Source: a virus
Reading direction: 5' to 3' (one strand)
Length of the DNA: 61,332 nt
IMG/VR virus record: IMGVR_UViG_3300017996_000001
Span: 1 to 61,332 of that record
Below the pieces are notes generated by a model. That model ran no database searches and was not told where the DNA came from. It worked only from the letters and a program-made list of their open reading frames with translations. Shown piece after piece: positions 1-57,861 of this stretch (its first letter is position 1; the number at the start of each line of letters is the position of its first letter). The position numbers were made by a program, and so were the translations under genes.

Positions 1-86
1 GCTGCGAATGTCCCCGATCCGGCCAGCGCAGGCGATCCTAGCCCGACTAGCGCGAGTGCAAGGCAAAGATACCTGAGCGCTTTCAT
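1..86 (-). CDS. 5' fragment of the secreted fibre-like protein (duplicate of 60222-61295)
   Basis: Codons 1-28 of the gene that is complete at the other end of the window. ATG at 86-84, preceded by GGAGTG. The encoded piece is the signal peptide (hydrophobic core, ALA cleavage site). It appears truncated only because the circular sequence is cut here. Confidence 0.9.
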   Translation of the reverse strand, partial: MKALRYLCLALALVGLGSPALAGSGTFA

Positions 87-123
87 TTCAAATCACTCCT
101 ATGACGACGAGTTGGCATGAATA
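1..123. repeat. Direct terminal repeat, left copy
   Basis: Bases 1-123 are identical to 61210-61332. Either the contig is circular and was left with an assembly overlap, or the virion DNA has short direct terminal repeats. P22-type phages normally package by headful with circular permutation, so an assembly overlap on a circularly permuted genome is the simpler reading. The repeat covers the start of the fibre-like gene at 60222-61295. Confidence 0.95.
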
Positions 124-254: not shown

Positions 255-494
255 CTAGGTATATGCACCATGACGGACCAGATCCGCCGCCTTGGTCGCC
301 GCCTCGAAAGCCCGCTTGCTTTCCATCGGATGCCCGGTAACCGGATGAATGATCGCGTCCATCTGATCGCGGATGACCATGGGCGCCGCAAGCTCCGATC
401 GGCATGACGCCGGCCCCAGCCGCCCAATATCGAGATTGCCGCCCTTGACGATGACGCCAACCCCATCGCGATAAATCATCGTTGTGCGAGCCAT
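255..494 (-). CDS. Conserved small phage protein, 79 aa
   Basis: Starts MARTTMIYRDGVG, with ATG overlapping the stop of the upstream glycosidase gene (TAATG at 496-492). The C-terminal third (HPVTGHPMESKRAFEAATKA) resembles a pattern I associate with small proteins in many tailed-phage head/tail clusters, where 'TG-x-x-x-x-SK-x-x-F' recurs. No catalytic motif is visible and it is probably a cytoplasmic or virion accessory protein. Function unknown. Confidence 0.65.
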   Translation of the reverse strand: MARTTMIYRDGVGVIVKGGNLDIGRLGPASCRSELAAPMVIRDQMDAIIHPVTGHPMESKRAFEAATKAADLVRHGAYT

Positions 495-2953
495 TATGTC
501 GGGTCCAATGACCCGGTAATGATGTAGACAGGTTCCGCGCCCAGGCTGATTCCGCTCACGGTTCCCGAGCTAAGGCCCGGCGTGCAAACGCCCATCCAAG
601 TGCAGAGGTAATAGACGCCGGCTGGAACCGTCGCGGTGTAAGAGGTCGAAGAGCTGTAGTCCCAAAGCGCCTGCGCGGTTGACGCGTAGCCGTTATGGGT
701 CCGCGTGAACCCATAGCCGAGTTGGGTTCCAGACGTTCCAGACACCGCGCCCGTCGAAGTCATGCCGTCGAGAACGTAGGTCATGAAGGCGTAGGCCGGA
801 ACAATTTCTTTCGGGCCGAGCTTGCTGTTCGCGCCGCCGCCAAGCGTCGTCGTGTCCATGTCGTAATAGAAGCCGTAATCGACTGCCTGCGCGCCGGTCG
901 CGTACATCGTGCAGGCGCCGGAGACGGCCAGCGCCGGGCCGCCTGGATAGGCCGCCACCGTCGCCGAAGTGCCGCCGCCAACTGAGCCGCCCGTCAGCGT
1001 GTAGAACGGCCTCGCGACCGCGACGCCGCAACCGGAGCCGAAATAAACCGCATAGGACGGATCAAGGTGGTTTGTCGGCGTGGTTAGCGTCGTTCCCGAC
1101 CCGGTGGCGGCATAAGTCACTGTGATGCCATCCGAGGGATAAAACGCGATCGCCAAAGGCGCATTGAACAGCCCGAGATAAAGCAAGGTGTTGCGAACGT
1201 CGCCTTCGGCTTGCTGCAATGTCGTCGGGTTCGCCGCATAGTTGGTTGCCGGGCCGCCTGTGTAGGCGCTTTCAGTCGGGACTAGCGGAATCGCGTGGCC
1301 GCGCGCCGCCGTCACGGCCGCGATTTGCGTCGTGATGCTCGAAATCCACGAACTGTTTTCGAAAGGCACGCCGGCGACATTGCTATAGGGGTGCATCGAA
1401 AAGGCGTCAAGATAAACGCCGAGGCCGCCAGACAGAAGCCCGCTAAGAAGCGTGTTGTTCGCGCTCCCACTCGTATCGGGGAACTGCGTCGGCCCCATGA
1501 CCTTCGCCTTGCGGTCCGCGCCGTGAATGACGTTGTAGCAAGTCGAGTACCATAGGTTGAAAGCTGCGGGCGGAAAACTCGAAATGTTGTACTGATTAAA
1601 CGGTTCCCACGTCATTTGATAGTAATCGACGGGATTTTGCGGGAACGCTTGCTGAAACCAAGTCGCAATCGCCGCGCAATACTGTGGCATTTCGGCTACG
1701 CCAGGCGGACTAATCATGGTCGCGCCGGGGCTTCCATAACCCGCAAAGTTGACGGTGCCCGAGCCTGTCACCGTCAACGTGCCGGCGTTGCAGCTATTCG
1801 TCGAGTTGACATTGAATGATCCGGCCGCGCCGTTGACGAGTGCTGTTGACGACACGAAAAAATTGGTTGTCGGGTTCGACGTGCCGCCGATTGTCCACCC
1901 GGTCCCGAAACTGACTTCCTGCCCGCAGGCCACATTATTATTGACAACGACGGTATTCGCCGAAGAAGTCCCCGCCGATTGATAGGCCCAAACCGGCGCG
2001 TAGGTCGCAAAATTCAGAATTGCATATATGTTCCACGGCTTGCCGCCGTAGGTGTTCCACGCGGCCTGACCCGTCAGGTTTGGATTGTCCGCCGAGGGAT
2101 AGACCGACACGCTCGAAGGCGAGCCGCTGAATACGACCGCCGCCCCGCCAGGCGCGGTTGCGACGGTAAATGTGGTCCCCGACGCAGTCAGAACATAGAA
2201 GGGACAGGAAACGCTTGGCAAAGCCGTGTCGCAGGCCGTGATCCCTGCTGGGAACGCGCCGCCCGAGCCAAAGGAAAAGACGACGACATCGCCGGGGACA
2301 TAGTTTGTCGTCGCGGCGCTCGTGACGGTTGAGCCCGAAAACGTCACCGCCGCCGGGACATTCGAGGCCGCCTTGTTGGCGATGAAAGTCCCCGGCGCTC
2401 CCGCGTCGTTAACGTACCAGCCGGGGCCTGCGATAATCCAACGCCAGCCGAGTAGCGGGAATATCGGGGCGGCATTGTTGAACCCACCCTCCGAGCCGAA
2501 ATGCGCATTCGCGCCGTAGTCGATGCGCTTGGCCGGATCAGGCACAACGGCATAGGTGAACAGGCCAGCCGGCCGAGTGACCGCCGCCGCGATATTCGAG
2601 CCGTCCGAAGGCAGGGCCGACAACGCGAGGTTGTACATGCCGGTATTCGTCGATGGAACGCTGACCGTAACCGAGCCGGTTCCCGCGCCGTTCGTCGAGA
2701 TTGACGTTCCGGTAGACGCGACGATGGTGTTGCCGTTTTCGTCTTTGATCTGGTAATTGAACGGCACCGCTGTCGAAATGTAATTTGTGTCCGCCGTCAG
2801 CGTGAAGGTGACTTGCGCAGTCGCGCCCTTGACAATGGTGCAGTGGATCGGCTGATTACAATCGGCCGTGAACTGCCCGACCGGGGCCAGAGCAAGCGCT
2901 GGCGAGCCCCCGAGAGCCAGCAGGAAGGCGACGAGAAGCGATTTAAGGCGCAT
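494..2953 (-). CDS. Secreted clan GH-A-type glycoside hydrolase with inserted beta domains, 819 aa
   Basis: ATG at 2953-2951 overlaps the preceding stop (TAATG). Residues 1-22 are a signal peptide (RLK, hydrophobic core, ALA). A TIM-barrel glycosidase is suggested by GWRW near 169, WEPFNQ with candidate acid/base Glu near 450, the barrel-strand motif FSMHPY near 520, and PTESAY with candidate nucleophile Glu near 561, in the order and spacing of GH39/GH5-like enzymes. Two stretches (about 195-290 and 330-415) and one after the nucleophile look like small phage-fibre beta domains ending in PGGA/PGGP and seem inserted in barrel loops. Likely role: cleaving host exopolysaccharide or capsule outside the cell. 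The residue after the Asn in WEPFNQ is Gln, not the Glu of a typical NE pair, so the acid/base assignment is tentative. Confidence 0.7.
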   Translation of the reverse strand: MRLKSLLVAFLLALGGSPALALAPVGQFTADCNQPIHCTIVKGATAQVTFTLTADTNYISTAVPFNYQIKDENGNTIVASTGTSISTNGAGTGSVTVSVPSTNTGMYNLALSALPSDGSNIAAAVTRPAGLFTYAVVPDPAKRIDYGANAHFGSEGGFNNAAPIFPLLGWRWIIAGPGWYVNDAGAPGTFIANKAASNVPAAVTFSGSTVTSAATTNYVPGDVVVFSFGSGGAFPAGITACDTALPSVSCPFYVLTASGTTFTVATAPGGAAVVFSGSPSSVSVYPSADNPNLTGQAAWNTYGGKPWNIYAILNFATYAPVWAYQSAGTSSANTVVVNNNVACGQEVSFGTGWTIGGTSNPTTNFFVSSTALVNGAAGSFNVNSTNSCNAGTLTVTGSGTVNFAGYGSPGATMISPPGVAEMPQYCAAIATWFQQAFPQNPVDYYQMTWEPFNQYNISSFPPAAFNLWYSTCYNVIHGADRKAKVMGPTQFPDTSGSANNTLLSGLLSGGLGVYLDAFSMHPYSNVAGVPFENSSWISSITTQIAAVTAARGHAIPLVPTESAYTGGPATNYAANPTTLQQAEGDVRNTLLYLGLFNAPLAIAFYPSDGITVTYAATGSGTTLTTPTNHLDPSYAVYFGSGCGVAVARPFYTLTGGSVGGGTSATVAAYPGGPALAVSGACTMYATGAQAVDYGFYYDMDTTTLGGGANSKLGPKEIVPAYAFMTYVLDGMTSTGAVSGTSGTQLGYGFTRTHNGYASTAQALWDYSSSTSYTATVPAGVYYLCTWMGVCTPGLSSGTVSGISLGAEPVYIITGSLDPT

Positions 2954-4074
2954 TAGAAGGGCGCTCCGTAGTGACATTTCTCGTAGAAGATCGGGTAAGG
3001 CAGGGCTTGGTTGTAAAGCCCAACAGCCTTGATGGTCCCGCCAAGCTGGCCGCTTCCGTTGCCATAACTGCCGATCCAACCAGCGGTGTATTGCAGAGGA
3101 ATGGTCGCGTTAATAGACCCGGCGCGGCCTTGTTCGCCCACCGTATTTCCTTGGGTTTGCGACAACTCTCCGCAGGATCGCTTATACGTGGGAGGTGACG
3201 CTCCAAGTATTGAGGACTGCGTCCCCGTTCCTGATTTATCCCAAATTGTTCCCGCGCTTTCAGTTAAGCAGAAAGTTCCAGTGGCGGCCTGCCCACACAG
3301 CAAGCGGCCGGATGAATTGATCGCGACCGTGTAATCAACCATCAGAGTAGAGTTTGCGCCCGTCACCGCAGACAGCGCAGCACCATTGAGCGCCATTGTC
3401 GGCACGCCGCGGTTGAAAGTGGCCGCCGCCGTCTTCATCAGGGGCGTCGGGCCATAGGCCGACGATGATGCGGGGCCTTCGACCTGGACCAGATTGATCG
3501 CCCCCGAGGCCGGAGCCGAGCCGGTCGGGTTTGTCCCTGTCCCCGTTACTGTAGTCGTCATTGTTCCGGCGACAGTGACGACGAGGGTTTGGTAGGTGCC
3601 AAGGCCGCAAGTCAGCGTGCCGGTGCCGGACGTGATTGTCGCCGTGCCGGCGGCCGTCAGAATGGACGTTGACGCGCCGCCGCTGCACCATGCAAAATAG
3701 GTTCCCGCCGAGGCGAACGTGACGGTGTTCGCTCCGGTCGCGATGCTCGCGCCGTAATTGTTCAGGAAAAACTGCGTCCGAGTCTCGTAAATATCAATTC
3801 CGCCGTACTTCGACCACGTGGGGGCGCCGGTCGCATAGCTGGTCGGAATCGTGCCGAGTGGGTCCGAAATGAGGGTGTCCGTCGAAGTCCCGCCGACGCC
3901 CGTGTCCGTGCGGGCATAGGTGACGGTCGAGGGCATACTGTTCTTGGTGAAATCTAGGACCGCTGTGACGGGGTACTGATTTTGCAGAGCAGCTTGCTGC
4001 GTCGCGTTGATCGCGAGCGCACAATTCGTCAGGCCAAGCAACAGGCCAAGGGCCGTGAAGAAGCCCTTAATCAT
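2953..4074 (-). CDS. Secreted LamG-like / receptor-binding-type protein, 373 aa
   Basis: Begins with a signal peptide (IKG, then a Leu-rich core, cleavage after CALA near 22). The body is Thr/Ser/Gly/Ala-rich beta structure with no charged helices. The end, with IGSYGNGSGQLGGTI followed by VGLYNQAL, matches the closing strands of concanavalin/LamG-like domains in phage adhesins ('G-x-I-x-x-V-x-x-Y-x-x-x-L'). ATG overlaps the stop of the upstream gene (ATGA at 4074). Probably a carbohydrate-binding adhesin in the same module as the glycosidase that follows. Why it carries a Sec signal is unclear. Confidence 0.6.
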   Translation of the reverse strand: MIKGFFTALGLLLGLTNCALAINATQQAALQNQYPVTAVLDFTKNSMPSTVTYARTDTGVGGTSTDTLISDPLGTIPTSYATGAPTWSKYGGIDIYETRTQFFLNNYGASIATGANTVTFASAGTYFAWCSGGASTSILTAAGTATITSGTGTLTCGLGTYQTLVVTVAGTMTTTVTGTGTNPTGSAPASGAINLVQVEGPASSSAYGPTPLMKTAAATFNRGVPTMALNGAALSAVTGANSTLMVDYTVAINSSGRLLCGQAATGTFCLTESAGTIWDKSGTGTQSSILGASPPTYKRSCGELSQTQGNTVGEQGRAGSINATIPLQYTAGWIGSYGNGSGQLGGTIKAVGLYNQALPYPIFYEKCHYGAPF

Positions 4075-5510
4075 CGCGAGCTATCCTGCACAAGGCCGAT
4101 TGTGGCGACGTAGTTTGTCGTGGCGCCAAAGGCCGTTGTGGTGACGCCAACCACATCGCAAACATAGAGGTTAACCGTCCCCGAGGAAGACGAAACCGAT
4201 TTGGAGAGCGGATAATCGCCCACTGTGAACCCCGATGCGGCTGGCTGATAGGGGGTAACGGTATTTATCATGAAGGGCGAGCCGGGAACCATAATAGCCT
4301 TGTCGGACGCGCTTAGGACGGCCGCAGCATGGTCCGTGCAGGTCATCGCTGGAGTGGCGCGGAATATGTAGCGATAGATAATTTCTGCCGTCTGGTTAAG
4401 CGCACCGTCCGCATCAAAGACGCCGAGGTCGGTCAGAATGCCAGATCCTTGGCTCGCATTGCCGAAGACGGCGAACGTCATCAGGCCGCCAATCGAATAG
4501 CCAGCCGTATAAGTGCTGGCCGTAATGGTCGGCATGACGGAGACTTCAGTGTTCGAAGTCACAACCGGCAGGCCCTCGCCGCCGACGCCCGGACCTTGCA
4601 CCGCAGCCGCGGTAGCCGAGGGTGAGCCGGTATTGGTGACGGGAAGACTGCTCGACCCGGTATTCGTCGCGATAGTTGCGAGAAACCCATTTTCGGCTTT
4701 GCCAAGACCAATCATATTGGCGTTGGTCGATCCAGAAACCCAAGCGCTCGTCGCAAGAGTTCCCAAATCAACATTCCAGCCATCCACACCGGACCCGACT
4801 GCAAAAGCGCCAGAGGTAAATGCATTGCTTGCCGCAGCGATCAGGAGAGGCGTTCCGCTGGCGTTGCCTTGAACCTCAACCGTGCTTCCCGATGCCGCTG
4901 CCGTGCCTGGCGTCGTGCCCTGAATTCCGCCAATCTGGGTCACGGAGACGGCCGCCGATGCCGCCGTGCTTGTTCCCAGCGGGCTTGTGATCGCCCCTCC
5001 ACCACCAGATCCGCTACCACCGCCAGTACCAGCTGGACTTCCAGTACCACCTTGGACATTGACCGTGGTGCCAGAGGGGGAAATGCAGCTCAGCTGAGTA
5101 ATTCCGCCGGTGGCATACCAGCTGAACCAGCTTCCCCCGCCACCGATATATTGATTAGAGGCCGTGGCTGGCCCAGCGCCGGGTACGCAGTAGGCTGCAT
5201 TGCTGCCGACATTGGTGACTATGATCTCTGTGGAGCTAGTCAGACTTGTAGTTCCACTCGAGCTAGTGACTGTGATGGGAGTCGCCAGACTCACCGTCTG
5301 GTTGAATCCCACTGGAGTGCTAGAGAATGTCCCTGTGACTGGCAGAGGATTATTCGCGTCAATCGGTAGGATTGACATTTGGTTGAGTTGCGTAGCCGAG
5401 TGCATGTATAGCTCGACCGGCTGCTGGGCTTGGGCCCGGCAAGACAAGAGCGCCCCGAGAAGCGCGAAGAGAAGTCTGTAAATTCGCGTTTTCATCTGAG
5501 TGCCCTTCAT
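4071..5510 (-). CDS. Secreted Gly/Ser/Thr-rich fibre-like protein, 479 aa
   Basis: ATG at 5510-5508 overlaps the preceding stop (ATGA). A second ATG at 5495 with an AGGG ribosome site would trim five residues and give a cleaner signal peptide (KTRIYR, hydrophobic core, AQA cleavage). The centre (about 165-185) is a Gly/Ser hinge, as seen between fibre domains. The C-terminal 150 residues form a compact beta-like domain with Cys pairs. No enzymatic motif. Probably an adhesin or tail appendage protein. Confidence 0.6.
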   Translation of the reverse strand: MKGTQMKTRIYRLLFALLGALLSCRAQAQQPVELYMHSATQLNQMSILPIDANNPLPVTGTFSSTPVGFNQTVSLATPITVTSSSGTTSLTSSTEIIVTNVGSNAAYCVPGAGPATASNQYIGGGGSWFSWYATGGITQLSCISPSGTTVNVQGGTGSPAGTGGGSGSGGGGAITSPLGTSTAASAAVSVTQIGGIQGTTPGTAAASGSTVEVQGNASGTPLLIAAASNAFTSGAFAVGSGVDGWNVDLGTLATSAWVSGSTNANMIGLGKAENGFLATIATNTGSSSLPVTNTGSPSATAAAVQGPGVGGEGLPVVTSNTEVSVMPTITASTYTAGYSIGGLMTFAVFGNASQGSGILTDLGVFDADGALNQTAEIIYRYIFRATPAMTCTDHAAAVLSASDKAIMVPGSPFMINTVTPYQPAASGFTVGDYPLSKSVSSSSGTVNLYVCDVVGVTTTAFGATTNYVATIGLVQDSSR

Positions 5511-5959
5511 GGGATAGTGACCGGTTGTGTTGGTGCTGTTCCCGCCCCAAGAACTGCCGCATCAAGAGCCGCGACATAATTAGCCACGGCATTTGCAAAC
5601 GATATGAACTTGGCCGTCGTCGTGAAGATATGCAGTCCCCCCGAAGCATCAGGCCAAGTGATTGTCGATTGGCCTCCAGGGAACGCCGCATTTACTTGAA
5701 TGTAAAGCGCGACGGAATTGATGTTGTCCAAAGCCAGAGGAGAAAGCGCATATGTCCCGCTAAGGACCGGCGTTCCGGTCGAGATGATTTGCAGGGTCGT
5801 CGGCACGCTTGGTGGCACGACATATGGCGTCGGCGTGTTCCCCGCTACGAGCCACGCCTGATAAGCTTGCCAACCGGCATTGCGCGGGTCAGTAGGAATG
5901 AATGCCCCATCGGAACGAAGCACATTCGATGTTGCTGTCAGCGCATACGTATAAGCCAT
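5507..5959 (-). CDS. DUF4376-like tail-fibre accessory protein, 150 aa
   Basis: The N-terminal part reads FIPTDPRNAGWQAYQAWLVA followed by GNTPTP. This is the 'DG-x-x-IP-x-D-x-x-N-x-x-W-x-x-Y-x-x-W' signature of small proteins next to tail-fibre genes. The C-terminal half (FPGGQSTITWPDASGGLHIF, then an Ala/Val helix) matches the DUF4376 pattern in phage tail-fibre assembly or tail accessory proteins. No signal peptide, unlike its neighbours. Likely acts in the cytoplasm on fibre folding or attachment. Confidence 0.6.
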   Translation of the reverse strand: MAYTYALTATSNVLRSDGAFIPTDPRNAGWQAYQAWLVAGNTPTPYVVPPSVPTTLQIISTGTPVLSGTYALSPLALDNINSVALYIQVNAAFPGGQSTITWPDASGGLHIFTTTAKFISFANAVANYVAALDAAVLGAGTAPTQPVTIP

Positions 5960-5962
5960 GGC

Positions 5963-6589
5963 TCACAACTCCGCGCTGGCGGTGTAGTTGATGAACAGCG
6001 TATTCGTATTAGACGATGCGAAAAGGATTGTCCCGGCTGATGCTTGAACATAAGTCAAAAACGAATATGCATTTGCCCAACTACCACCAGAATAAAGAGA
6101 ACATTTATTCGATGTTCCAGCGCCATCATAAAAGACAACAGTAGGCGATGAACGCATTACTATTGGTAATGCCATGCCAGTCCCGTATCCGGCGGCATAT
6201 ACGTTTGGAATTGGAACTAAATCAGCCGTATCCGAAGACCCCGGCGCTGTGCCTGCGTTATAACTGGTCTGGAAATATCTCTTGTTGAACGGAAGTTCTG
6301 CAAAGATCGGCCGCAATTCCGGAGGGGGAGGAGAAGCGTTTATCCCGATCGAGACGCCCGGCGTGACGCGAATGTCCGCCGCCGCGGCGAAAAGATTGAG
6401 CGCGGCTTGCTGGCGCGTGCAATTCCAATTGGCCGAGCGGAAAATCGCGTCGACCTGCGTCTGATAGTTACGGCTGGCGACCTGAGCGACGACCGAATTT
6501 GACGGAGATGCAGGCGAAATCCCCTGTATCGGCGTGTTGACGCCCATGCTGTCGAGACTCTGGTTGATGATATCGACCGGCGACGTCAT
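5963..6589 (-). CDS. Phage protein with adaptor-like N-terminal domain, 208 aa
   Basis: Residues 1-75 (VDIINQSLDSMGV, then DAIFRSANWNCTRQQAAL) look like the helical N-terminus of tail-tube/head-adaptor proteins of the gp4/gp11 type, which start with 'DI-x-N-x-A-L-x-x-x-G' and contain a 'W-x-x-A/T-R' helix. The remainder is beta-rich (ALPIVMRSSPTVVFYDGAG) and resembles the distal 'wrap' domain of receptor-binding proteins. This hybrid could attach an appendage to the tail. The genome has a more complete gp4 homologue at 39250-40011. Exact role uncertain. Confidence 0.5.
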   Translation of the reverse strand: MTSPVDIINQSLDSMGVNTPIQGISPASPSNSVVAQVASRNYQTQVDAIFRSANWNCTRQQAALNLFAAAADIRVTPGVSIGINASPPPPELRPIFAELPFNKRYFQTSYNAGTAPGSSDTADLVPIPNVYAAGYGTGMALPIVMRSSPTVVFYDGAGTSNKCSLYSGGSWANAYSFLTYVQASAGTILFASSNTNTLFINYTASAEL

Positions 6590-6592
6590 GGA

Positions 6593-6820
6593 TCATTCCT
6601 CGCGGACTTCCTCGAAAAGCGGAATGTCCTCCCAATCGCCTGCGTATTTGCCCTGAAACGCCTGTTGCGAGACCGCGTCCATCGATGCGGCGTGAAGATC
6701 TGGTGATTTCTGGACGCTTTTATGCGGGCCGCGCACGCCTTCGGGAAGCTCGAAGATATAGCCCGGCAGGCGATGCGCGCCATCGAGTTGCGCCGGAGCC
6801 AGAAGACGATATTTTGTCAT
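6593..6820 (-). CDS. Conserved small phage protein, 75 aa
   Basis: ATG at 6820-6818 (MTKYRLLAPAQLDG). The pattern 'K-Y-x-x-L-x-P-A-Q-x-D-G ... G-Y-x-F-x-L-P-E-G-V-x-G-P-H' occurs in small proteins near tail-fibre genes of phages and prophages. The acidic tail (EDIPLFEEVREE) is typical of the family. Sits between the large tail fibre and the adaptor-like protein. Function not known; no enzymatic or membrane feature. Confidence 0.6.
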   Translation of the reverse strand: MTKYRLLAPAQLDGAHRLPGYIFELPEGVRGPHKSVQKSPDLHAASMDAVSQQAFQGKYAGDWEDIPLFEEVREE

Positions 6821-6834
6821 GCGCCAAATCCCTC

Positions 6835-9663
6835 TCAGCAATGCATGACGATGCCGCCGATCGTGGCGAAACTGCCAGATGGCGAACCGCTGCAACTTAG
6901 TCCGACGCCGCGCGCGAACATCGTATTAGTTCCCGTATTCAAGGTCGCGCTTGTCGACGCTCCAGACACGTTGCCGACGCCGAAATAATTGAGCGTCGCG
7001 CCGGTCTCCACAACGACGCCATATTGAAGGCCACCCTGCGCGTTGTTGATGATGCCGATATCCCACTCGTCATAGGATCCCCACGCATCGACGCCACGCG
7101 ATGAGCCACCATTATTCTCGATATTGTTGATCTTCCATTGGTTTGAATTGTACTGCGCGATGTTCGTCGAGTTATAACCCTCATTGACACCGGCAGTGAC
7201 GGCGCCATGGATTTGCTGAATGTCTATTTTTGTTTGCTGGAGGCCAGTCGTGCCGCTCGCACCCTCGACGAGCACGCCATAATATGCGCTGTTGTTCGCA
7301 TTGATTTCTGTGAAATTCAAATTTTCCTGTATAATAGACCCCGACCCCGTGATAAGGCAAACATCGGCAGTGATCGTGCCGCTGACGGGATTGGAGACTG
7401 GAGATTTTATTCTGACGAGGCCAGCGTAAATTCCGGCAAAGCCGTCCTGTGTATTTGTGACAGGGGACAGTTGCACGATGCAGGAGGGGTTAGTTATTGT
7501 GTTGCCGTTCGGACTCGTGACGTGATAGACGATCTTGCCATCCCAGACGAAGCTACTCGCGCCTTCGCTATCCAGCGTAAGGCCCGACGTCGTCGTGACA
7601 TTGATATTCAGGTTGCAGGTGTTGTCGGCGTAAAAATCCCAATCCTGCGCGACGGGAACGCGGATGGCCGAACTCGTATTGATGTAAACCGGCTCGGTCC
7701 CGCTGGGAAACTTGGTGCCCTGACAATTGACGCGCGCTGGCCATGAGTTTGATGCCGTCGCGGTGATAAATTCTTGAAGGCATTGCGTTGTCGTTCCCGC
7801 GCAGGAGATCGGATTGCCCCATGGATCGACCGCATTCCACGGCACCGTCGGCGTCGTCGATTGGCTCGGATGAGGCCACATCCGCGCAAAGCCCGGCTCG
7901 ACTTGAACAATCGTGCTCGTAAGAAAATTGGCGCCCTGCCCCAGCGCGCAATATTGCACCGCGCCCGTCGATCCAGTCGAATTGCAGAGAACCGACGATG
8001 CGCTGGCGTTGCCGAGACCGGCCGACGTGATCGTCTGATTCGGCCAAGATCCAGTGATAGTGACGTTTGTCCCTGCGACAAGGGCAGGCGAGGCCGTTCC
8101 GGTTCCACCATTGGCAACAGCCACAGTTCCAGTCAGAACTGAGGCTGGGATGGTTGCCGAGGCTGACATGGCACTGGTGCCATTGCCATAGACAAAACCA
8201 GACAAGGTTCCAATTCCAGTACCACCACCCGAGACTGGAACTGGAGTTCCAAAGGCCAGCGCACCAGTAGCACTTAGGGTCCCCGAGATTGAAGTGTTGC
8301 CAAGCGTTCCAGTGCTGGTAATGTTGCCCTGAACTGCTGCAGGTAAGGTCGAGCTAATGCTCGGAACGCCGCCAGAACTGGTGACCAGGACTCCGTTATT
8401 GGCCGAGGCTAAGCCACTGACTGTTGTGCCAGAACTGGAATAGTATGCAAGTTGATTAGCGGTCCCTGAAGCGACAGTGCCGCCGCCACCGCCCGTCGTG
8501 CAAGCTCCGCCTGCATCTACAAAATTACCACTAGCGTCAATATCTACACAGTGGGTAGGAGTTAGTGTGCCAGTTGTAGTTACAACCTTAGTTGTATTGC
8601 CAGACACGGTACCAGCAGTCACTGGACTTGTTCCTGCACCAAATAGTGGCAGGCCAGATCCAAGTGTTACCGCTCCAGTGCCGCCTTGAGGCACCGTAAC
8701 TGTGGTTCCGGCGAGAAGCGCCACTGCCCCGGCGTCTATGATGTTTCCCAGCGCGTCCTGCTTGACTGCGTTGCCAGTGTTTCCTAGGCCACCGCTTTCC
8801 GTCACGAAAGCACTAGTAGATCCGGACAGTGTCCCTGTTGCAAAGGTGTTGATTCCATTGCCCAGCAGTGGAGCCCCAGATGTGAACGTGCCCGCGCCGG
8901 AACCACCATTCTGCACTGAGAGAACTGTGCCAACCCAGTTGGAATTATTGATTGTGTTTAAAAAGGCTAGGGCTTTGAAGGGTACCCCGTTAGATGCAGT
9001 ACAGGTGATGTTTGGGCTGGTGAAGGAGCAATCACCCCCGAGGGCGATGCTTCCAACTGTGGAGGAAGAGGCATAGGCAGCAAGATTGCCAGTAGTTCCT
9101 GCATTTACTCCACTATTTGGTGGAGTTGTCCAGTGCCCGGTGCCATTCCACCAGGTGGAACTGCTGGCTCCAGTTCCTGAATCCAGATTGGTGACTGGAA
9201 GGTTCTGGACACCACTCAGGGTCGTTGGCCCGGTCCAGATACCAATCTGGCCGCTTAGTGGAGTGCCGACATTGGACACGTTGCCGCTGCCAGCCCCGCC
9301 GGCATTGATTGGGCTGATGAGGTACCAGGAATTACCATGATTGGCCAGCTGGACTACAGTCCCGGCTCCCGGCAGGGCTCCAGGGACTAAGGCTCCGCCA
9401 GAGTTATTGTAAATTGGAAGGGCCGGAAAGCCGAATTGCTGGAGAGTTGGGCTGGTGGTAAGATTGGCTGCACTCAGAGTCAGCAGCAACATGTTGGTGG
9501 TGGTTTGGCATGGCAGAACTGGAATCGTGATCGCGTCCCCAGTGCCAGTAGCGATTGCACTAGCAACGCATTGAGTGACTGGAGGAACCTGCGCGCTTGC
9601 TGGGGCCAGGGGGAAAAGACCCAGCATCAACGTGGCGACAGCCGCCAGCCAGGGGGGCCTCAC
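6835..9663 (-). CDS. Large tail fibre / adhesin with signal peptide, 942 aa
   Basis: GTG start at 9663-9661 overlaps the terminase small-subunit stop (GTGA). Residues 1-25 are a classical signal peptide (RPP, Leu/Ala core, ASA cleavage). Residues about 90-540 contain repeated 'GGTG/GGSG' units (QGGTG, NGGSG, GGGTG, NGGTG), the usual fibre shaft repeat. Residues about 650-930 look like a right-handed beta-helix ending in a compact tip. Base composition changes near 8040 (residue about 541): the shaft resembles the phage core, while the C-terminal 400 residues are CG-rich. The receptor-binding part therefore appears to have been exchanged. Whether it is on the virion or exported is not clear from sequence. 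Confidence 0.75.
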   Translation of the reverse strand: MRPPWLAAVATLMLGLFPLAPASAQVPPVTQCVASAIATGTGDAITIPVLPCQTTTNMLLLTLSAANLTTSPTLQQFGFPALPIYNNSGGALVPGALPGAGTVVQLANHGNSWYLISPINAGGAGSGNVSNVGTPLSGQIGIWTGPTTLSGVQNLPVTNLDSGTGASSSTWWNGTGHWTTPPNSGVNAGTTGNLAAYASSSTVGSIALGGDCSFTSPNITCTASNGVPFKALAFLNTINNSNWVGTVLSVQNGGSGAGTFTSGAPLLGNGINTFATGTLSGSTSAFVTESGGLGNTGNAVKQDALGNIIDAGAVALLAGTTVTVPQGGTGAVTLGSGLPLFGAGTSPVTAGTVSGNTTKVVTTTGTLTPTHCVDIDASGNFVDAGGACTTGGGGGTVASGTANQLAYYSSSGTTVSGLASANNGVLVTSSGGVPSISSTLPAAVQGNITSTGTLGNTSISGTLSATGALAFGTPVPVSGGGTGIGTLSGFVYGNGTSAMSASATIPASVLTGTVAVANGGTGTASPALVAGTNVTITGSWPNQTITSAGLGNASASSVLCNSTGSTGAVQYCALGQGANFLTSTIVQVEPGFARMWPHPSQSTTPTVPWNAVDPWGNPISCAGTTTQCLQEFITATASNSWPARVNCQGTKFPSGTEPVYINTSSAIRVPVAQDWDFYADNTCNLNINVTTTSGLTLDSEGASSFVWDGKIVYHVTSPNGNTITNPSCIVQLSPVTNTQDGFAGIYAGLVRIKSPVSNPVSGTITADVCLITGSGSIIQENLNFTEINANNSAYYGVLVEGASGTTGLQQTKIDIQQIHGAVTAGVNEGYNSTNIAQYNSNQWKINNIENNGGSSRGVDAWGSYDEWDIGIINNAQGGLQYGVVVETGATLNYFGVGNVSGASTSATLNTGTNTMFARGVGLSCSGSPSGSFATIGGIVMHC

Positions 9664-15532: not shown

Positions 15533-15662
15533 GGGGCGGGCTAGCAGGCGCTCGGTCCCTAGCCTTCCACACACTCGTCCAGCTTCCAGCTCTTTACTCC
15601 CCCTGGGGTTCCCATCCGGACCTAGTCACTTCCCTCACCCGCGCACTCAGGAGACACCAGCC

Positions 15663-46060: not shown

Positions 46061-46761
46061 AGGTGTCCCTCCACCTTCCAGGGATCATAGTCCACCGGAG
46101 TAAACTTGCTAGTCGGTGCGAGGGCCTGCAGTTGGGCCATCACAATTGCTGGATTTGGCTGTTGGGGGACCTCATCAGGGCTAGAGTACAACTGGTTAGC
46201 CGGCTGACCACCCGGCTGGCCGCCCAACTTGCTGCTGCTGGTGCCGGTACTTGGACTTGGGCTTGCCCCTGTGCTGCCCCGCAGGCTTGGCCATTGGCCC
46301 GCCAGCGCGCTATAGTCCACCTTTCCCGCCTGCTGGTCCGCTGTCAAGTCCCGTCCGGTCTGGTTCTTATAAGTAGTTTGCGCAAGGTCCCAGGCAGCCA
46401 AGTCTTGGTTCCTTGGGCTGAAGTCAGTGAGTCCCAACTTGCTGGCCTGGGCATCCCACGTACCAGCGAGAAATTGATATTTTCCAGCCGCTGTTGAGTA
46501 GAGCCCTGGCCTATCGGGAATCGAGACCTTAATTCTAGGGTGATCGGCAAAGGAATCGAATTGCTGGCCACCATATATGGTATGATAGTCCTGGCTCTCG
46601 CCCGACGAGATCTTGGCCAGGACGCTGTAAGCAGCTGGAGAAAGGCCTGAATCCGAAGTAGTAGTGGAACCCGAAGATGAAGGAGCAGCACCTTGTATCT
46701 CCCAACCAGTAGGAGTTAGAACCTGAGTATATCCATTAACTACTCGCGTCTGATCCATCAC
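46057..46761 (-). CDS. Lambda-R-type lysozyme domain protein (GH104-like), 234 aa
   Basis: GTG at 46761-46759 (or ATG at 46758) overlaps the portal stop. Residues about 43-140 match the lambda R transglycosylase: catalytic Glu in KISSGESQDYHTIYGG, then FADHPRIKV, STAAGKYQFLAGTWDAQA and LGLTDFSPRNQDLAAW. Flanked by Ser/Thr/Gly linkers and a disordered tail (GQPGGQPANQLYSSPDEVPQ). Expression with head genes and no signal peptide suggests a virion-associated enzyme that opens peptidoglycan during DNA entry. A separate endolysin is at 57436. Confidence 0.75.
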   Translation of the reverse strand: MMDQTRVVNGYTQVLTPTGWEIQGAAPSSSGSTTTSDSGLSPAAYSVLAKISSGESQDYHTIYGGQQFDSFADHPRIKVSIPDRPGLYSTAAGKYQFLAGTWDAQASKLGLTDFSPRNQDLAAWDLAQTTYKNQTGRDLTADQQAGKVDYSALAGQWPSLRGSTGASPSPSTGTSSSKLGGQPGGQPANQLYSSPDEVPQQPNPAIVMAQLQALAPTSKFTPVDYDPWKVEGHL

Positions 46762-49007
46762 TGTCCTCCACCCGGCGGCCGGCGCTGCTGTGCGAGCGGA
46801 GCGACATGGAGATACCTTCCTCTACGTGTCGGATCTGCCAAGTACCACTCTCCATCTGGGGCCTTCTGGGCCCCAGGAATTGGGGGAGGTTCATCAGGCT
46901 GAAGCGCTGGTTTCCCGACGTCATCTCCACCGAGCTGATTCTTGTTTGCCTCGACAATAGAATCAAGAGAGGTCTTGTGTGCATCGCCCACCAGCTGAGT
47001 TATCAGATCCTGCATTCCCTGAGGATCCAGCGGCAGTTGATCTTGCAGGGCCTTAATCCTATCGGTCTCGGCCTTGTAGACATCAATGTCTCGCATCTCG
47101 GACTTGCCCACGAGCTTCAGCCTGTCCTTCCCGTGCGCCTCCAGAGACTTAGTCAGTGCCTGAGTCAGCGCCTGGATCTGCTGCTGCATCTGCTGCTCAG
47201 CCTGGGTCGGACCATTTCCTAGTGCCTGCTGCGGTACCATTCGCCGTAGACGTGCTGCAGCTTCCTCAGCTTTATCAAAACCCATGCTGCTAAGCAGAAG
47301 ATCACCCACAATCGCGGTAAGCCCAGGGTTCTGTGTAAGAATGAGACCAAGCGCCTCGACGGTTTCCTCCCGCTTGGATTCATATGCTGGCCCAACCCCC
47401 GGTGCAACATCATACTTACCAAGTAGAGGATTGAAAACCCGAGAAACCACCACATTATTATGATCCATCTGCTGAGAGTAAGCTTGCTGGGCCGTAGGAT
47501 CGATAGTCATTTCGAGGTCAGTACCGTCATCAGCCAGAATACGCAGCACGCGGCGAGTATCGTAGACCATAGGAATCAGGTCAATAAGCTGGCGTGCCAG
47601 GTTGATCAAGGATTCTTCATATGAGTCCTGGAAATGATAGACCGCCGTGGCGCTCTGCTCCTGGCGCTTGCCAATCGCGGCTCCAGTCCTCTCATTCCCA
47701 ACCATCCCCATCTCATTCTGATACTGCCCAGACGTCATCATCATCTGGTTGAAGGCAGTCTCCATGGCAGCCTGATAGGCCGGGCTGGCAGTCGGGGGTG
47801 CAGTGCGGAATGGTGGTGGGACTACATTCCCCTCGTCGTCTAGATGGTTCCAGATCAGGACCGAGTGATTGGTCCTATTAGCTGTGTTCCACATAGACTC
47901 GAATTCCTCCACAGCGGCCGCCGGGGCGACCCAGGGAGTCTTACCTTGCAAGGCGGTAAACTCAACCTGGGCCGAGGCATTATAGTTATACATCCTCTGA
48001 GCGTCCTTCATCGCCCGAGTGTGACCCTTGCGATCCAGTATCCCCCCGATCACGGTCTCTTCCCCTAGGACTCGAATAAGGGGAATATACTTTCCTGGCC
48101 AGGTAGTCTTGTCAGCAATCTCCTCTCCAACGATAAGGAACCACTCAATCACTTCTCGCTGTACGTCCCTGATCTTAGTAAGTTTGTCCTCCTTCAGCTC
48201 ATCATACAGCTCCTTCGGCATCTTGGACTTCAACAACATATCGCGCTCACCAGAGTCGCTAATCCAACTCACCAGCTGATCATCGTCTAGGGTCTTGCGG
48301 AAGTACTCACAAATTCGCACATCATCCTTAGTCAACCAGTCGTCACTCACACTGGTGATGCCGAGGGGAGTCTGACTCAGCACTCCCTTATACTTTGGAT
48401 ACATGTCCTCGAATAAGTCCTTCGGCACGTTGTCAAACACAAATGCGTAGCGCATGTCACTGGCATCGCGCTGCTGAGTGTCAGGGTCCGCATAGATACT
48501 CAGCGGATCATTGACTGGGCGGATAAAGATTTCCTGATCAAAGCTGTCAGGGCCTGCATATTCAGTAACCAGTCTGAACCACCCAATGCCCCCATCGATC
48601 TGGAAATCTCTGGCAATCGTGAATGCTGACTGTGCATTGGATTGGTGCTCGACATGCCTGGCAATATCGCGCAGAGCATTAGCTGATTCCTGAGTTGCCC
48701 CGTTGCCGGTTGCGATGAACTTGACTGAGGACTTGTTTTTCTTTGCTGCATTAGAGATCTGCAAGTTATGCTGGCGAATGATATTCATCGTCAGACAGGG
48801 CTTCGCGGACTCATTCCTCTGAATCTTAATGTCGTTTGGCCACTGGTAGCCGTTCTCGCTATCTCCATGGCGGAACTTGAGATCATCCAGGAACCTAATC
48901 CGAGCCGTGCTTTCCCACTCGGAGCAGCGATCAAATCTCTTCCGAGCCTCTTGAATTACCGGATCCCCTGAGATTGTGTTCGGGGCCGGATCTGGATCAG
49001 CTGCCAC
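46758..49007 (-). CDS. Portal protein, P22 (gp1) type, 749 aa
   Basis: GTG start at 49007-49005 with AGGA upstream. The N-terminal third (KRFDRCSEWESTARIRFLDD, LKFRHGDSENGYQWPND, NIIRQHNLQISNAAKKNKSS) and FDNVPKDLFEDMYPKYKGVL are P22-type portal landmarks; length 749 aa (P22: 725). The C-terminal helices (QIQALTQALTKSLEAHGKDR) are the barrel/crown region. It forms the DNA channel and packaging motor docking site. Confidence 0.9.
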   Translation of the reverse strand: MAADPDPAPNTISGDPVIQEARKRFDRCSEWESTARIRFLDDLKFRHGDSENGYQWPNDIKIQRNESAKPCLTMNIIRQHNLQISNAAKKNKSSVKFIATGNGATQESANALRDIARHVEHQSNAQSAFTIARDFQIDGGIGWFRLVTEYAGPDSFDQEIFIRPVNDPLSIYADPDTQQRDASDMRYAFVFDNVPKDLFEDMYPKYKGVLSQTPLGITSVSDDWLTKDDVRICEYFRKTLDDDQLVSWISDSGERDMLLKSKMPKELYDELKEDKLTKIRDVQREVIEWFLIVGEEIADKTTWPGKYIPLIRVLGEETVIGGILDRKGHTRAMKDAQRMYNYNASAQVEFTALQGKTPWVAPAAAVEEFESMWNTANRTNHSVLIWNHLDDEGNVVPPPFRTAPPTASPAYQAAMETAFNQMMMTSGQYQNEMGMVGNERTGAAIGKRQEQSATAVYHFQDSYEESLINLARQLIDLIPMVYDTRRVLRILADDGTDLEMTIDPTAQQAYSQQMDHNNVVVSRVFNPLLGKYDVAPGVGPAYESKREETVEALGLILTQNPGLTAIVGDLLLSSMGFDKAEEAAARLRRMVPQQALGNGPTQAEQQMQQQIQALTQALTKSLEAHGKDRLKLVGKSEMRDIDVYKAETDRIKALQDQLPLDPQGMQDLITQLVGDAHKTSLDSIVEANKNQLGGDDVGKPALQPDEPPPIPGAQKAPDGEWYLADPTRRGRYLHVAPLAQQRRPPGGGQ

Positions 49008-49116: not shown

Positions 49117-50427
49117 TCATCCCATCCACCCCAGTCCAGGATACTTATCCGAGAATTGATCTTTTACCTTACGAAGTTTTTCAACCAACTGGCTAGGGCC
49201 CTTCGGAGTCTTGAGCGCGAGGGCAAGTGTTGCGAAAGCATCTGCTCCATCGCTTGCCCAATCATGGACAGGCTCATTTGAGAGCTGGCCGTCCACGACG
49301 CGATAACGGTAATGCCTGAGGGCGCTGATTCCATCTGTACACTCTTCCTCGTCGAACCAACAATTTGGTAAAATGAGCCTGGCCGCATTAACTGAGTCAA
49401 CCTTGGCGGTTCTTGGGACAATATGGACACGGTAGCCAGCTCCTCGAATCATAGCCTCAATTGACTTTTTCTCTCCAAGTCTCTTCGCAGCGCCATCGTG
49501 AGGGAGGTACACAGTCCCATAGACATATTGCCGCGTCTGAAGTTCACGTAGATAGTGGGTGATGTCCTCGCCAGTTCCTTGGTAATAGGCCAAAATCCTA
49601 TACTGCATTGCGACTCGCTGCGCGAACCAAATAGCTGTAGCATCGGCGCGTCCCAGGTCCCAAAATGTATCAACGGGACAGGTACGGTCATAGGGAACAG
49701 TGCAGATACGACCCTCTTCCTGGCACTTGCGAAGCTCTTTAGCATAAACGGCACCCTCTAGCAACTGCAGACAGTGGCCTTCCCACACATTCAGGTAGTA
49801 GTCATGATCTCGCTTCTTGTCTCCTTCCATCTCCTCGCGGAGGACCTGGGGAAACCAGGGATTGTCTCGATAGGTCATCTTAATGACGATGGAATCGGAG
49901 GATTCCGAGATCTGGGCCGTGGCCTTAGCTAGCTCTGGATTCTTGATGAACCTAGTATAGGTATAGTCTGTATCTAGTTCTGGATTGAAGGTAATCCAGA
50001 TCTCGCTACCCGGCCGCCGGATGGTAGGAATGAGTGTGCCCCAGCTAGACCGCGAGACCTTATTTCCCTCCTCAACCCAACAATGTGTGATGCCCTCAAA
50101 GCTCTTAATCTTATTGACATTGTTCTTGATGCCAGCAAAGACAAATGTCGTTCCATTGGCTCCAATGATCTTGTCCTTCTGGACCTCATAGAAATTGCTT
50201 AATCCGAGAGCTTCGACCTGATCACTCAGGACCTTATGAACCGACTCGGAAATGGAATTCTGTAGTTCACGAGCGCAAAGTACTCGCAAAGCCTTCTCAG
50301 TTCCCAACAGCAGCAGCGCACGTGCTACTCCCCAAGACCTGCCAGCACCGCGGCCTCCATAGAGAATCTTGTATCTCTTAGGAGCGAAGAGGCACTGGAG
50401 CAGGTCAGGAAACTGTGCGTCAATCAT
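49117..50427 (-). CDS. terL: Terminase large subunit, 436 aa
   Basis: ATG at 50427-50425 (MIDAQFPDLLQCLFAPKRYK). Walker A-like YGGRGAGRSWGVARAL at 23-38 has Arg where the canonical Lys stands. Walker B HCWVEE at 115-120, motif III TFNPE at 146-150, nuclease Asp in FWDLGRADATAIWF and a C-terminal Asp in HDWASDGADAFATL. This is the DNA-packaging ATPase/nuclease. The small subunit is far away at 9660-10262. It starts 28 nt after motif copy D and after a stable hairpin, so it probably has its own promoter. The 109-bp gap before the portal gene is A/T-rich and shows at most a 17-codon frame (49035-49088). Confidence 0.9.
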   Translation of the reverse strand: MIDAQFPDLLQCLFAPKRYKILYGGRGAGRSWGVARALLLLGTEKALRVLCARELQNSISESVHKVLSDQVEALGLSNFYEVQKDKIIGANGTTFVFAGIKNNVNKIKSFEGITHCWVEEGNKVSRSSWGTLIPTIRRPGSEIWITFNPELDTDYTYTRFIKNPELAKATAQISESSDSIVIKMTYRDNPWFPQVLREEMEGDKKRDHDYYLNVWEGHCLQLLEGAVYAKELRKCQEEGRICTVPYDRTCPVDTFWDLGRADATAIWFAQRVAMQYRILAYYQGTGEDITHYLRELQTRQYVYGTVYLPHDGAAKRLGEKKSIEAMIRGAGYRVHIVPRTAKVDSVNAARLILPNCWFDEEECTDGISALRHYRYRVVDGQLSNEPVHDWASDGADAFATLALALKTPKGPSQLVEKLRKVKDQFSDKYPGLGWMG

Positions 50428-50455
50428 GACTTCTTGCCGAGGACCTTGCCATGGG

Positions 50456-50476
50456 GGTTTCTCCAAAAAACGTGGG
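50456..50476 (-). promoter_or_regulatory. CCCACGTTT motif, copy D
   Basis: On the - strand CCCACGTTT, 8 bases (TTTGGAGA), AACC, 28 nt before the terL ATG. The same motif on the + strand precedes three other genes or regions, here in the opposite orientation and in the late arm. It sits immediately after the hairpin at 50480. Confidence 0.65.
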
Positions 50477-50479
50477 CCG

Positions 50480-50497
50480 GGGGGGCCGAAGCCCCCC
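50480..50497 (-). terminator. UUCG hairpin between 50507 and terL genes
   Basis: GGGGGGC-TTCG-GCCCCCC on the - strand, a perfect 7-bp stem with a UUCG tetraloop 9 nt past the stop. The T-run (50465-50470) comes after a 9-nt gap and belongs to motif copy D, so termination may be partial. Confidence 0.55.
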
Positions 50498-50506
50498 AGA
50501 CTAGAC

Positions 50507-51883
50507 TTAGAGCGCCGCACTCCAGGTAAGGATGCTGCCGCCACCCGCGCCAACAAGAGCGCAAGTGTCGCCAGCAGTAAAGCCAGAGGCTACGGTGGCA
50601 ATCAGGCCGCCATACTGCGGAGTATTGCCGGTTTGCACTACCAAGAACGTAGTTGCCAGGGCAGTATTAGTGCCCGCCACACCCAACTTCCAAGTGCTGG
50701 TGCTCAGAGCCGTGCCGCTTGCGCTAAAGGTCGGTGCAGCCCGCATGGCCGCTGGCCACTGGAACTGGACCCAGCAGGTAGTCGTAGAAGCAGCATACCC
50801 CACAGCAACCTGCGCTGCCGTTGCCGGCTCCGCCACTGAGTACACGAAGTAGTTCTGCTGAGCCTGACTAGCCTGCAGCCCAATCGAATTGAAGGGCTGG
50901 ACGGGAGCACCAGTCCCAACTGCGCTGCCAGTCCCCGTCAGATAGCTCGCGGCATTGTCTACCGCCAGCTGGAGTCCAGCAAAGGCCACATAGTTGGTCG
51001 CTCCAGCTGTTGCCGTCGGGGTGAAGCAGACAGCCACACCAACCTCAGTTGCAGCCGCCGGCACAGTGCCATAGACTACATAGCGAGTCGGAGTAGTGCT
51101 GACAGTCAGTGCCTGGGCAACTGCGTTGGTCTGCCCAGACCATCCACTGGAGCCGCCGCCACCAGCATTCAGCCCATAGGCCATATTGACCGAGCCATTG
51201 TCACCGCCGGAGTCCTTTCCGTAGATGATATAGGCCGTAATCTGGCCATTGGTATCCGCAGCAAAGGTGGCATCCGCTGTGGCATAGAAGCTAAACTCCA
51301 GCGTGGAGCCAGCAACTCCAGCAGTAGTTGAAGCTAGAACTTCCTGCCCCATGCAAACCGGCACAAGTCCGGTCTGGCTCGCGGTTTCCGCCATCTTATA
51401 CGCAGTCGCAAAGCCAGTCGGCAGATCACCCGCAGTCGTGTCCTTGGACACAGTCATAGCCGTCGAGGTTCCAGACCACGCGAACCAATCCGAGTTCTGA
51501 TACTTGACTGCCGTCGTAGCACTAATACCAGCGGTACCGAACGGATAGGTGTTCTGAGTCGCGTCCCCAGCCACCAGCAGCTGAGCAGCACCGCTGGCTA
51601 CATAGTTAGCTGCGTATTGCCCCAGCTGTTGGACTGTGATTCCCTCGGTCTGGGGATTCTGACCATTCGGCAGCTGAGTATCGAAGCTGGCTCCCTCCTT
51701 GCCGGTCAGGGGAATCGTGCTTGGATACTGCACTCCTCCCGCAAACGGATACGGAGTCACAGTCCCACCCGTCAGAGTATTATTTATCCCTGTATTAGTC
51801 GTAAAGCCGCCGGCCCAAGCCGTAGCTCCTAGTCCAAGCGCTGCGCAGAATGCCAGCACTGACACCTTTGTCCTCGTCTTCAT
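50507..51883 (-). CDS. Secreted Ala/Thr/Gly-rich adhesin-like protein, 458 aa
   Basis: ATG at 51883 with AAGGAG. Signal peptide residues 1-25 (KTRTKVS, hydrophobic core, AWA). The body is beta-rich with tandem jelly-roll-like domains: YQNSDWFAWSGTSTAM near 125 resembles the carbohydrate-binding-type domain that recurs in phage tail proteins, and the C-terminal part is an all-beta domain with Cys. No catalytic residues seen. Composition is phage-core-like, unlike the CG-rich adhesins at the contig ends, so signal peptides are not limited to the foreign block. Confidence 0.65.
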   Translation of the reverse strand: MKTRTKVSVLAFCAALGLGATAWAGGFTTNTGINNTLTGGTVTPYPFAGGVQYPSTIPLTGKEGASFDTQLPNGQNPQTEGITVQQLGQYAANYVASGAAQLLVAGDATQNTYPFGTAGISATTAVKYQNSDWFAWSGTSTAMTVSKDTTAGDLPTGFATAYKMAETASQTGLVPVCMGQEVLASTTAGVAGSTLEFSFYATADATFAADTNGQITAYIIYGKDSGGDNGSVNMAYGLNAGGGGSSGWSGQTNAVAQALTVSTTPTRYVVYGTVPAAATEVGVAVCFTPTATAGATNYVAFAGLQLAVDNAASYLTGTGSAVGTGAPVQPFNSIGLQASQAQQNYFVYSVAEPATAAQVAVGYAASTTTCWVQFQWPAAMRAAPTFSASGTALSTSTWKLGVAGTNTALATTFLVVQTGNTPQYGGLIATVASGFTAGDTCALVGAGGGSILTWSAAL

Positions 51884-55665: not shown

Positions 55666-55740
55666 TTAGAGTAAATTAAGGTACAGAATCAGTCCAGCCA
55701 GGACCAAACCAGTCACAACTCCTGCAAAAAACTTAATCAC
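55666..55740 (-). CDS. Membrane microprotein, 24 aa
   Basis: GTG at 55740-55738 overlaps the TGA of the upstream gene (GTGA) and the TAA is followed at once by GGAGG for the next gene. The product (MIKFFAGVVTGLVLAGLILY, then NLL) is a single transmembrane segment with one Lys. Too short for most annotation tools. Coupling on both sides supports translation. Confidence 0.55.
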   Translation of the reverse strand: MIKFFAGVVTGLVLAGLILYLNLL

Positions 55741-56249
55741 TTGAGTGCCGCCAAGGTCGCTGCGCCGGTCGTGATGCCCGTCACCATGTTAAGCAGCGTT
55801 AACTTCTGGAAATTCGCTAAGGCTGCGCAGCCGGTCATGAGAGGAGAATTCGGCTGGAACGCCACGATCAGGTCAGTTCCGATCTCGATGTCAACCGCGA
55901 GATGAAGCTTCGGCATCTGGTCGGCGGTTGGAAGCGTCGCGATCTGATTCACGAAGGTAAGAATCGGCTGGAAGCACGCCACCGTCATCGTATCGGGCGG
56001 AACGGCAACCCCCGCGAGTTTGATCGCCATTGTCAAATCCGCCGCCGCATCGGCAGTAACCCACGCCCGAACCTTGTCGATCATCTGATCAATCGAGAGC
56101 GACTTGTTACCGGTTCCATTGAGGTTCAGCGGATCGAATGGGAGGGGGATAGGGAGGCCGGCGACAGGCACGGGTGGCACCAGGTCTTTCGCCAGCGCTG
56201 GCCCCATGGCGAGCGCAAGACCAAATCCAGCGGCAAGAATTCGTTTCAT
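55737..56249 (-). CDS. Secreted protein, 170 aa
   Basis: Signal peptide 1-20 (KRILAAG, hydrophobic core, ALA cleavage). The mature part has a Pro-rich start (VPPVPVAGLPIPLPFDPLNL), then a helical body with ACFQPILTFV and GCAALANFQKL containing two Cys that could pair. No enzymatic motif. CG-rich like the other foreign-looking genes. Lies between the cysteine peptidase and the membrane microprotein. Family not recognised. Confidence 0.55.
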   Translation of the reverse strand: MKRILAAGFGLALAMGPALAKDLVPPVPVAGLPIPLPFDPLNLNGTGNKSLSIDQMIDKVRAWVTADAAADLTMAIKLAGVAVPPDTMTVACFQPILTFVNQIATLPTADQMPKLHLAVDIEIGTDLIVAFQPNSPLMTGCAALANFQKLTLLNMVTGITTGAATLAALK

Positions 56250-57435: not shown

Positions 57436-57861
57436 TTAGGTTAGAAATTGGGCTCTCTCGGCCTTTCGGCGCCCCAACAGTTCTGCTGGATGGTCCCAAA
57501 GCAGAAAATCGTCAGCAGCAGCGCCCACATTCCCCTGATTGAACATCTTCACCGTGCTAGAGCTGGCAAATCCACCAACTCCAATATTAAAGCATAGTGA
57601 GCAGTAGGCATCGAACTGATTTTGGCTCATTGGCAGCCTGACAGCTCGATTTACCTCAGCCATTGTCGGCCCAAGATCTTGGCGCAGGATCTGGATTGCA
57701 TAGTCTCGAGTCCAGACTATACCATTTGAGACCCTAGGAGGGCTCATCCTTCCAGTATGCCCTACTCCAATGGTCAAAATTCCCCTTGAGTCACGATAGG
57801 CCTTGAGTATCAGGCCCTCGCGCTGCACGATAGCTTCTAGTCCTGCTTGGCTGATTTCCAT
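57436..57861 (-). CDS. GH24 endolysin (T4-type lysozyme), 141 aa
   Basis: ATG at 57861 after TAGGAG. The catalytic triad E15-x8-D24-x5-T30 is intact (VQREGLILKAYRDSRGILTI), followed by GVGHTG and a helical lobe (MSQNQFDAYCSLCFNIGVGG). No signal peptide, so export needs a holin. Cleaves the glycan backbone of host peptidoglycan. Its composition is core-like, in contrast to its CG-rich neighbours on both sides. Confidence 0.9.
   Translation of the reverse strand: MEISQAGLEAIVQREGLILKAYRDSRGILTIGVGHTGRMSPPRVSNGIVWTRDYAIQILRQDLGPTMAEVNRAVRLPMSQNQFDAYCSLCFNIGVGGFASSSTVKMFNQGNVGAAADDFLLWDHPAELLGRRKAERAQFLT

Follow-up and report, generated by a model that had tools for sequence, protein, structure and literature searches.

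Assembly of tailed phages is taught as a cytoplasmic process. The stretch of DNA analysed here (the window, 61,332 bases) is the complete 61-kb genome of a P22-like podovirus, a soil-type tailed phage, and it raises the question of why ten of its late gene products, a tailspike and fibre-type proteins among them, appear to begin with Sec signal peptides. The original prediction offered three options for this set: export of surface-acting proteins and their release ahead of lysis, fibres whose attachment to virions takes place outside the cytoplasm, or hydrophobic anchors at the N-terminus put to some other use.

The P22-type portal, coat, head-closure (gp10) and ejection (gp7-like) genes match PHROG families phrog_156 (1.5e-96), phrog_283 (3.9e-55), phrog_578 (6.6e-90) and phrog_598 (1.9e-19), and by these matches the window phage is a P22-like podovirus. 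The late region lies on the minus strand, crosses the circular junction and carries the P22-like gene set. Given the identical 123-bp ends, the contig closes as a circle and the ten leader genes fall in one late region. The interval originally given for the set, 494-9663, contains only four of them; the remaining six, at 50.5-61.3 kb, belong to that late region too, on the other side of the junction. The features that frame the ten genes are as follows.

1..123, no strand: direct terminal repeat of 123 bp, identical to 61210-61332
49117..50556, minus strand: terminase large subunit, leaderless (context gene)
46758..49007, minus strand: P22-like portal, leaderless, 3 Cys in 749 aa
41051..42274, minus strand: major capsid protein of P22 coat type, leaderless, 1 Cys
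39250-40011 and 37314-38804, minus-strand late region: tail accessory and head-closure genes
35499-36338, minus-strand late region: ejection protein
57436..57861, minus strand: lysozyme-type endolysin, leaderless

The lack of a leader on the lysozyme-type endolysin implies holin-timed lysis. A lysozyme/tail-fibre-lysozyme match directly behind the portal gene (46057-46761) is possibly a virion lysozyme, and a late protein without a leader (36340-36927; 9 Cys in 195 residues, no Pfam match) is a homologue of G001 47387-48520. Elsewhere in the window, a single protein at 24269-25747 matches both the ParB N-terminal domain and DNA methylase, and an early-region match to the uracil-DNA-glycosylase superfamily (26731-27900) lies near a family A DNA polymerase (28338-29939). 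A prophage search with capsid alignment was too weak to name a host, yielding only 3 metagenome bins (Xanthobacteraceae, Rhizobiales, Proteobacteria).

All ten minus-strand starts are present at the positions originally given, and the GC content of the genes runs from 0.517 to 0.620, in keeping with the earlier remark that the set spans composition types. The proteins, referred to below by start position, are listed here with the cysteines of their mature parts.

51947..53836, minus strand: predicted exported tailspike, 629 aa; signal peptide from 1 to about 20, head-binding domain at about 28-108, beta-helix; 10 Cys
50507..51883, minus strand: predicted exported tail-fibre-like protein, 458 aa, adjoining TerL; signal peptide, 'GFTN' N-terminal domain; 4 Cys
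6835..9663, minus strand: predicted exported tail fibre, 942 aa; GTG start, signal peptide, GGTG-type shaft repeats; 16 Cys
4071..5510, minus strand: predicted exported low-charge protein, 479 aa; signal peptide ends A-Q-A; 4 Cys; no family match
2953..4074, minus strand: predicted exported low-charge protein, 373 aa; signal peptide ends A-L-A; 6 Cys; no family match
494..2953, minus strand: predicted exported large protein, 819 aa; signal peptide ends A-L-A; 12 Cys
60222..61295, minus strand: predicted exported low-charge protein, 357 aa; signal peptide ends A-L-A; 6 Cys; no family match
59470..60222, minus strand: predicted exported low-charge protein, 250 aa; signal peptide ends A-Q-A; 2 Cys
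57878..59473, minus strand: probable exported protein, 531 aa; TTG start, hydrophobic leader with poor cleavage site; 14 Cys
55737..56249, minus strand: predicted small exported protein, 170 aa, adjoining lysis genes; signal peptide ends A-L-A; 2 Cys

Apart from 53836, 51883 and 9663, none of the ten has a family match, and most have no recognisable virion-binding domain. For the protein that starts at 2953 (494..2953), no match was found in Pfam, PHROG, NCBIfam or PDB and no relative in viral contigs, its single-sequence structure model is unusable (mean pLDDT 34.5), and the earlier suggestion that it is a GH-A-type glycosidase, which would call for a TIM barrel with two catalytic glutamates, is not confirmed. 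The protein at 56249 is small, more charged than the other leader proteins and located beside lysis genes; it probably has a lysis-related or accessory role in the periplasm and is no adhesin.

Leaders were scored with a home-made test that combines a von Heijne-type cleavage matrix with rules for the n- and h-regions, and which is passed by 12 of 12 known E. coli signal peptides and by 0.55% of internal windows. Nine of the ten proteins, rather than all ten as first claimed, pass the test and have the basic n-region, hydrophobic core and A-x-A site of Sec and signal peptidase I substrates. The exception is 59473, which has a strong hydrophobic core and no good A-x-A and fails at the cleavage site; the original wording had placed this site 'in most cases' only, which is correct. 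The same nine are the sole credible hits among the 67 open reading frames of the window, with one weak extra hit (42459-42824, score 3.9), and a residue-shuffled window proteome gives a mean of 0.2 leader proteins compared with the nine observed. When the first 40 residues of these proteins were shuffled, 12% of the shuffles passed, though this is a poor control, the N-terminal composition itself being leader-like. Applied to Rhodoferax phage P26218, the test accepts a single annotated gene, as well as one unannotated antisense open reading frame, and the genome paper reports exactly one signal-peptide protein by SignalP (PMC4657236).

The starts themselves are also very likely correct, as six of the ten (9663, 5510, 4074, 2953, 60222 and 59473) overlap the stop codon of the upstream gene in the manner of coupled genes. 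By inspection, none of the ten leaders contains the lipobox L-[AST]-[GA]-C of lipoproteins. A scan of all open reading frames in capsid loci under a loose start rule gave 51 leader hits versus 33 in shuffled sequence, a contrast weak enough that family-based tests were used instead. Judged on sequence, the leaders are genuine features, and export of the proteins that carry them is a well supported prediction.

The tailspike provides the most direct view of how a leader relates to the protein behind it. As predicted, 53836 has a head-binding-like domain, with residues 31-102 matching by sequence or profile the solved tailspike head-binding domains PDB 7eeq and 9vyg/9vyh, and its body has pectate-lyase/epimerase-like and beta-helix matches. 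The domain is 64% identical to that of G001 while the remainder of the spike does not align, and such a contrast is what one usually sees where a virion anchor is joined to a receptor-binding part that varies. Searches seeded with leader-bearing sequences identified, in viral contigs, 28 homologues with a leader ending directly before the head-binding domain and about 50 without a leader that start at the domain. In the phage collection the domain starts the protein, with no leader, in 14 of 14 records examined: PAE2 and P26218, where it begins at residue 3 or 4, and 12 others from Vibrio, Shewanella, Thalassomonas, Xanthomonas, lake and spring phages. Additional relatives in the collection were listed with an approximate spike N-terminus query, and four of these (H72, H76, H82 and H84) were examined.

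Whereas these phage-collection proteins begin at the head-binding domain, 53836 has a signal peptide in front of it. The predicted mature N-terminus is ANA^ATLVPNG in the leader form, compared with M^ATLLPNG in the leaderless form, so cleavage at the predicted A-x-A would leave the protein starting where leaderless homologues start once methionine is lost. Leaders are kept in homologues even though the leader sequence has diverged. We also checked whether the leader might be an ordinary virion-binding tip in homologues; it is not, as the domain begins after the leader and leaderless homologues have no such segment. By sequence, the leader is a module added to proteins of virion type. On the domain tree leader-bearing and leaderless members cluster, with 6 changes on the best tree, a pattern that a single origin could also give and in which counts are not fully independent; a tree-based independent-pairs test had too few supported pairs. 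In several genomes a leaderless spike is found beside leader-bearing fibres (L249/G015, L080/G009 and L207/G007), indicating that such phages do not require all of their spikes to be exported. On contig L193 (3300011116_001156), a leaderless spike with the head-binding domain adjoins a leader-bearing fibre of the 9663 type.

Proteins exported to oxidising compartments tend to have even numbers of cysteines because cysteines pair. The mature parts of all ten window proteins have an even count, and the leaderless virion proteins of the window have almost no cysteines (terminase left out of the comparison). Within the spike family, 25 of the members with a leader have an even count and 1 an odd one, whereas the leaderless members divide into 18 even and 27 odd (Fisher p=1e-6), a conservative figure given that L217 and L231 were scored as leaderless yet have long leaders by eye. 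With one sequence per cluster the ratios are 10 even to 0 odd versus 10 to 17 (p=6e-4); this non-redundant set came from stricter clustering of C-termini, single-linkage having chained nearly everything together. Across 15 clade genomes including the window, the low-charge proteins that carry a leader comprise 36 with an even count and 2 with an odd one (p=5e-9), or 27 and 2 without the window. Genome G015 offers an internal control, with leader-bearing proteins of 10, 2 and 2 cysteines and a leaderless spike of 9. Even, co-varying cysteines are the mark of periplasmic disulfide proteins; the pairs are tied to the leader, and we infer that they form disulfides.

The fibre-type proteins repeat this pattern. 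The family of 51883, named GFTN after its N-terminal motif, has leader and leaderless forms as the spike family does, mostly with a leader, and the predicted mature N-termini again correspond (ALA^AGFFTNG in the leader form versus M^SGFITNG in the leaderless form). Both kinds of member are found on a single contig (L062, 2-889 and 13475-14053). The predicted structure of 51883 is beta-rich (mean pLDDT 65.7), with its N-terminal 100 residues poorly modelled, and resembles carbohydrate-binding modules in the PDB and viral tail-fibre models (E down to 1e-21). Cysteines in this family are gained and lost as pairs: columns 192 and 307 are both occupied in 13 of 13 members and columns 399 and 473 in the same 6 of 13. 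The three complete leaderless members have zero cysteines. In 9663 the GGTG shaft repeats of the original description are confirmed, and its N-terminal domain has a conserved cysteine pair (TQC...LPC); four relatives with this domain also bear leaders, the one in L193 judged by eye.

Taken together, these observations lead us to favour, as somewhat better than evenly probable, the view that the proteins are Sec-exported, periplasmically oxidised, receptor-binding or polysaccharide-acting proteins, and that those with virion-binding domains dock at lysis. Several other explanations would account for parts of the data. In small proteins of low charge, an abundance of A, L and G can look like a leader, and some N-terminal shuffles do pass our test, so the leaders could be artefacts of chance or composition, or of wrong start codons. 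The excess over whole-protein shuffles, the coupled starts, the retention of leaders in homologues and the cysteine parity make this scarcely credible. It is slightly less far-fetched, but still very improbable, that the leaders stay uncleaved and serve to hold the proteins in the inner membrane or a virion tip. The poor cleavage site of 59473 would fit such an anchor, whereas most members have an A-x-A, at a position that would restore the leaderless N-terminus, followed by a mature part with paired cysteines. Together with the placement of the leader before the normal start domain, this also disfavours the third of the original options, that of anchors reused for another purpose.

The main rival, which we consider unlikely on the whole, holds that these are exported, disulfide-bonded depolymerases or lectins that act freely in the periplasm or outside, where they could shorten O-antigen or exopolysaccharide as it is made, guard against superinfection by blocking receptors, or remove debris at lysis, the head-binding domain being a leftover or serving trimerisation. 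Several of the ten have no virion-binding domain, some genomes pair a leaderless spike with separate leader-bearing fibres, and in Acetobacter phage phiAX1 a leader-bearing fibre and glucanotransferase adjoin the tail genes, all of which would fit free action, above all in the case of 494-2953, 56249 and those proteins that lack a virion-binding domain. On the other hand, the spikes with leaders have kept a conserved head-binding domain, beginning at the mature N-terminus just as in leaderless virion spikes, and an enzyme that acts freely would have no need of it. Of the original options, export and joining of virions are supported in part, and the retained domain favours joining virions over release before lysis.

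Under the favoured reading of export followed by docking, the tailspike, fibres and other polysaccharide-acting proteins would be synthesised as Sec precursors that cross the inner membrane, lose their leader to signal peptidase I, and fold and form disulfide bonds in the periplasm. The head, portal and ejection proteins, which have no leader, would remain cytoplasmic. Once holin opens the inner membrane, DNA-filled particles would meet finished spikes, and at least 53836 would dock via its head-binding domain as the last assembly step; we infer this attachment after export from the retention and conservation of that domain. P22 assembly ends with the addition of the spike. Its tailspikes fold slowly into very stable trimers (PMC9576892). 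With stable trimers that are slow to form and a spike that is added last, an external spike pool would be compatible with assembly. Whether this extends to two-compartment assembly in many uncultured P22-like phages, with a cytoplasmic capsid and with receptor-binding proteins that are exported, oxidised by host Dsb, attached after breach of the inner membrane and switched gene by gene via a leader placed exactly before the virion-binding domain, we regard as evenly balanced.

If spikes are exported first, host recognition would depend on the Sec and disulfide machinery of the host, spikes could already block receptors or attack polysaccharide at the surface before the cell lyses, and producing the depolymerases of such phages as recombinant proteins would call for oxidising expression. 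For annotation, a leader before a virion-binding domain should be read as real and not as a mis-called start. The claim can be tested directly by comparing cysteine parity, within one domain family, between members that have a leader and members that do not.

The closest known systems are the P22/Sf6-type tailspikes and those of PAE2 (Pseudomonas), P26218 (Rhodoferax) and PBR31 (Xanthomonas), together with PDB 7eeq and 9vyg, which share P22-like portal, coat and tail genes, the head-binding domain and a beta-helix body. The known P22/Sf6-type, PAE2, P26218 and PBR31 spikes nevertheless start at the domain without a leader, and their cysteine counts are odd or even without bias. P26218 (L010), whose spike is leaderless, has a single small leader-bearing protein with 2 Cys near its lysis genes (gp24, 15489-15998). 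For tailed phages, a limited full-text literature search, which does not prove absence, turned up no account of tailspikes or fibres exported by Sec.

The cultivated prophage phiAX1 (LC644973, L009), which is called incomplete by PHAST, also has a P22-like portal and encodes, at 26418-29312 and 40047-40361, a fibre (4 Cys), a cycloisomaltooligosaccharide glucanotransferase (6 Cys) and a small protein (2 Cys), all three leader-bearing; the fibre and the glucanotransferase adjoin the tail genes. It differs in that no leader-bearing spike with a head-binding domain of the 53836 type was found in it. The annotated start of the glucanotransferase (27492) misses a leader that starts at 27387, and a term search of the main text of the phiAX1 paper found no mention of signal peptides.

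Other phage-encoded proteins use the host export route, including Lom and Bor of lambda, Llp of T5, spanins and SAR endolysins, but these are not virion adhesins. In filamentous phages the coat proteins pIII and pVIII are virion proteins made as Sec precursors. Lom is discussed in PMC12309495. Filamentous phages, however, extrude through the membrane, whereas the window phage is a tailed phage whose capsid is assembled in the cytoplasm.
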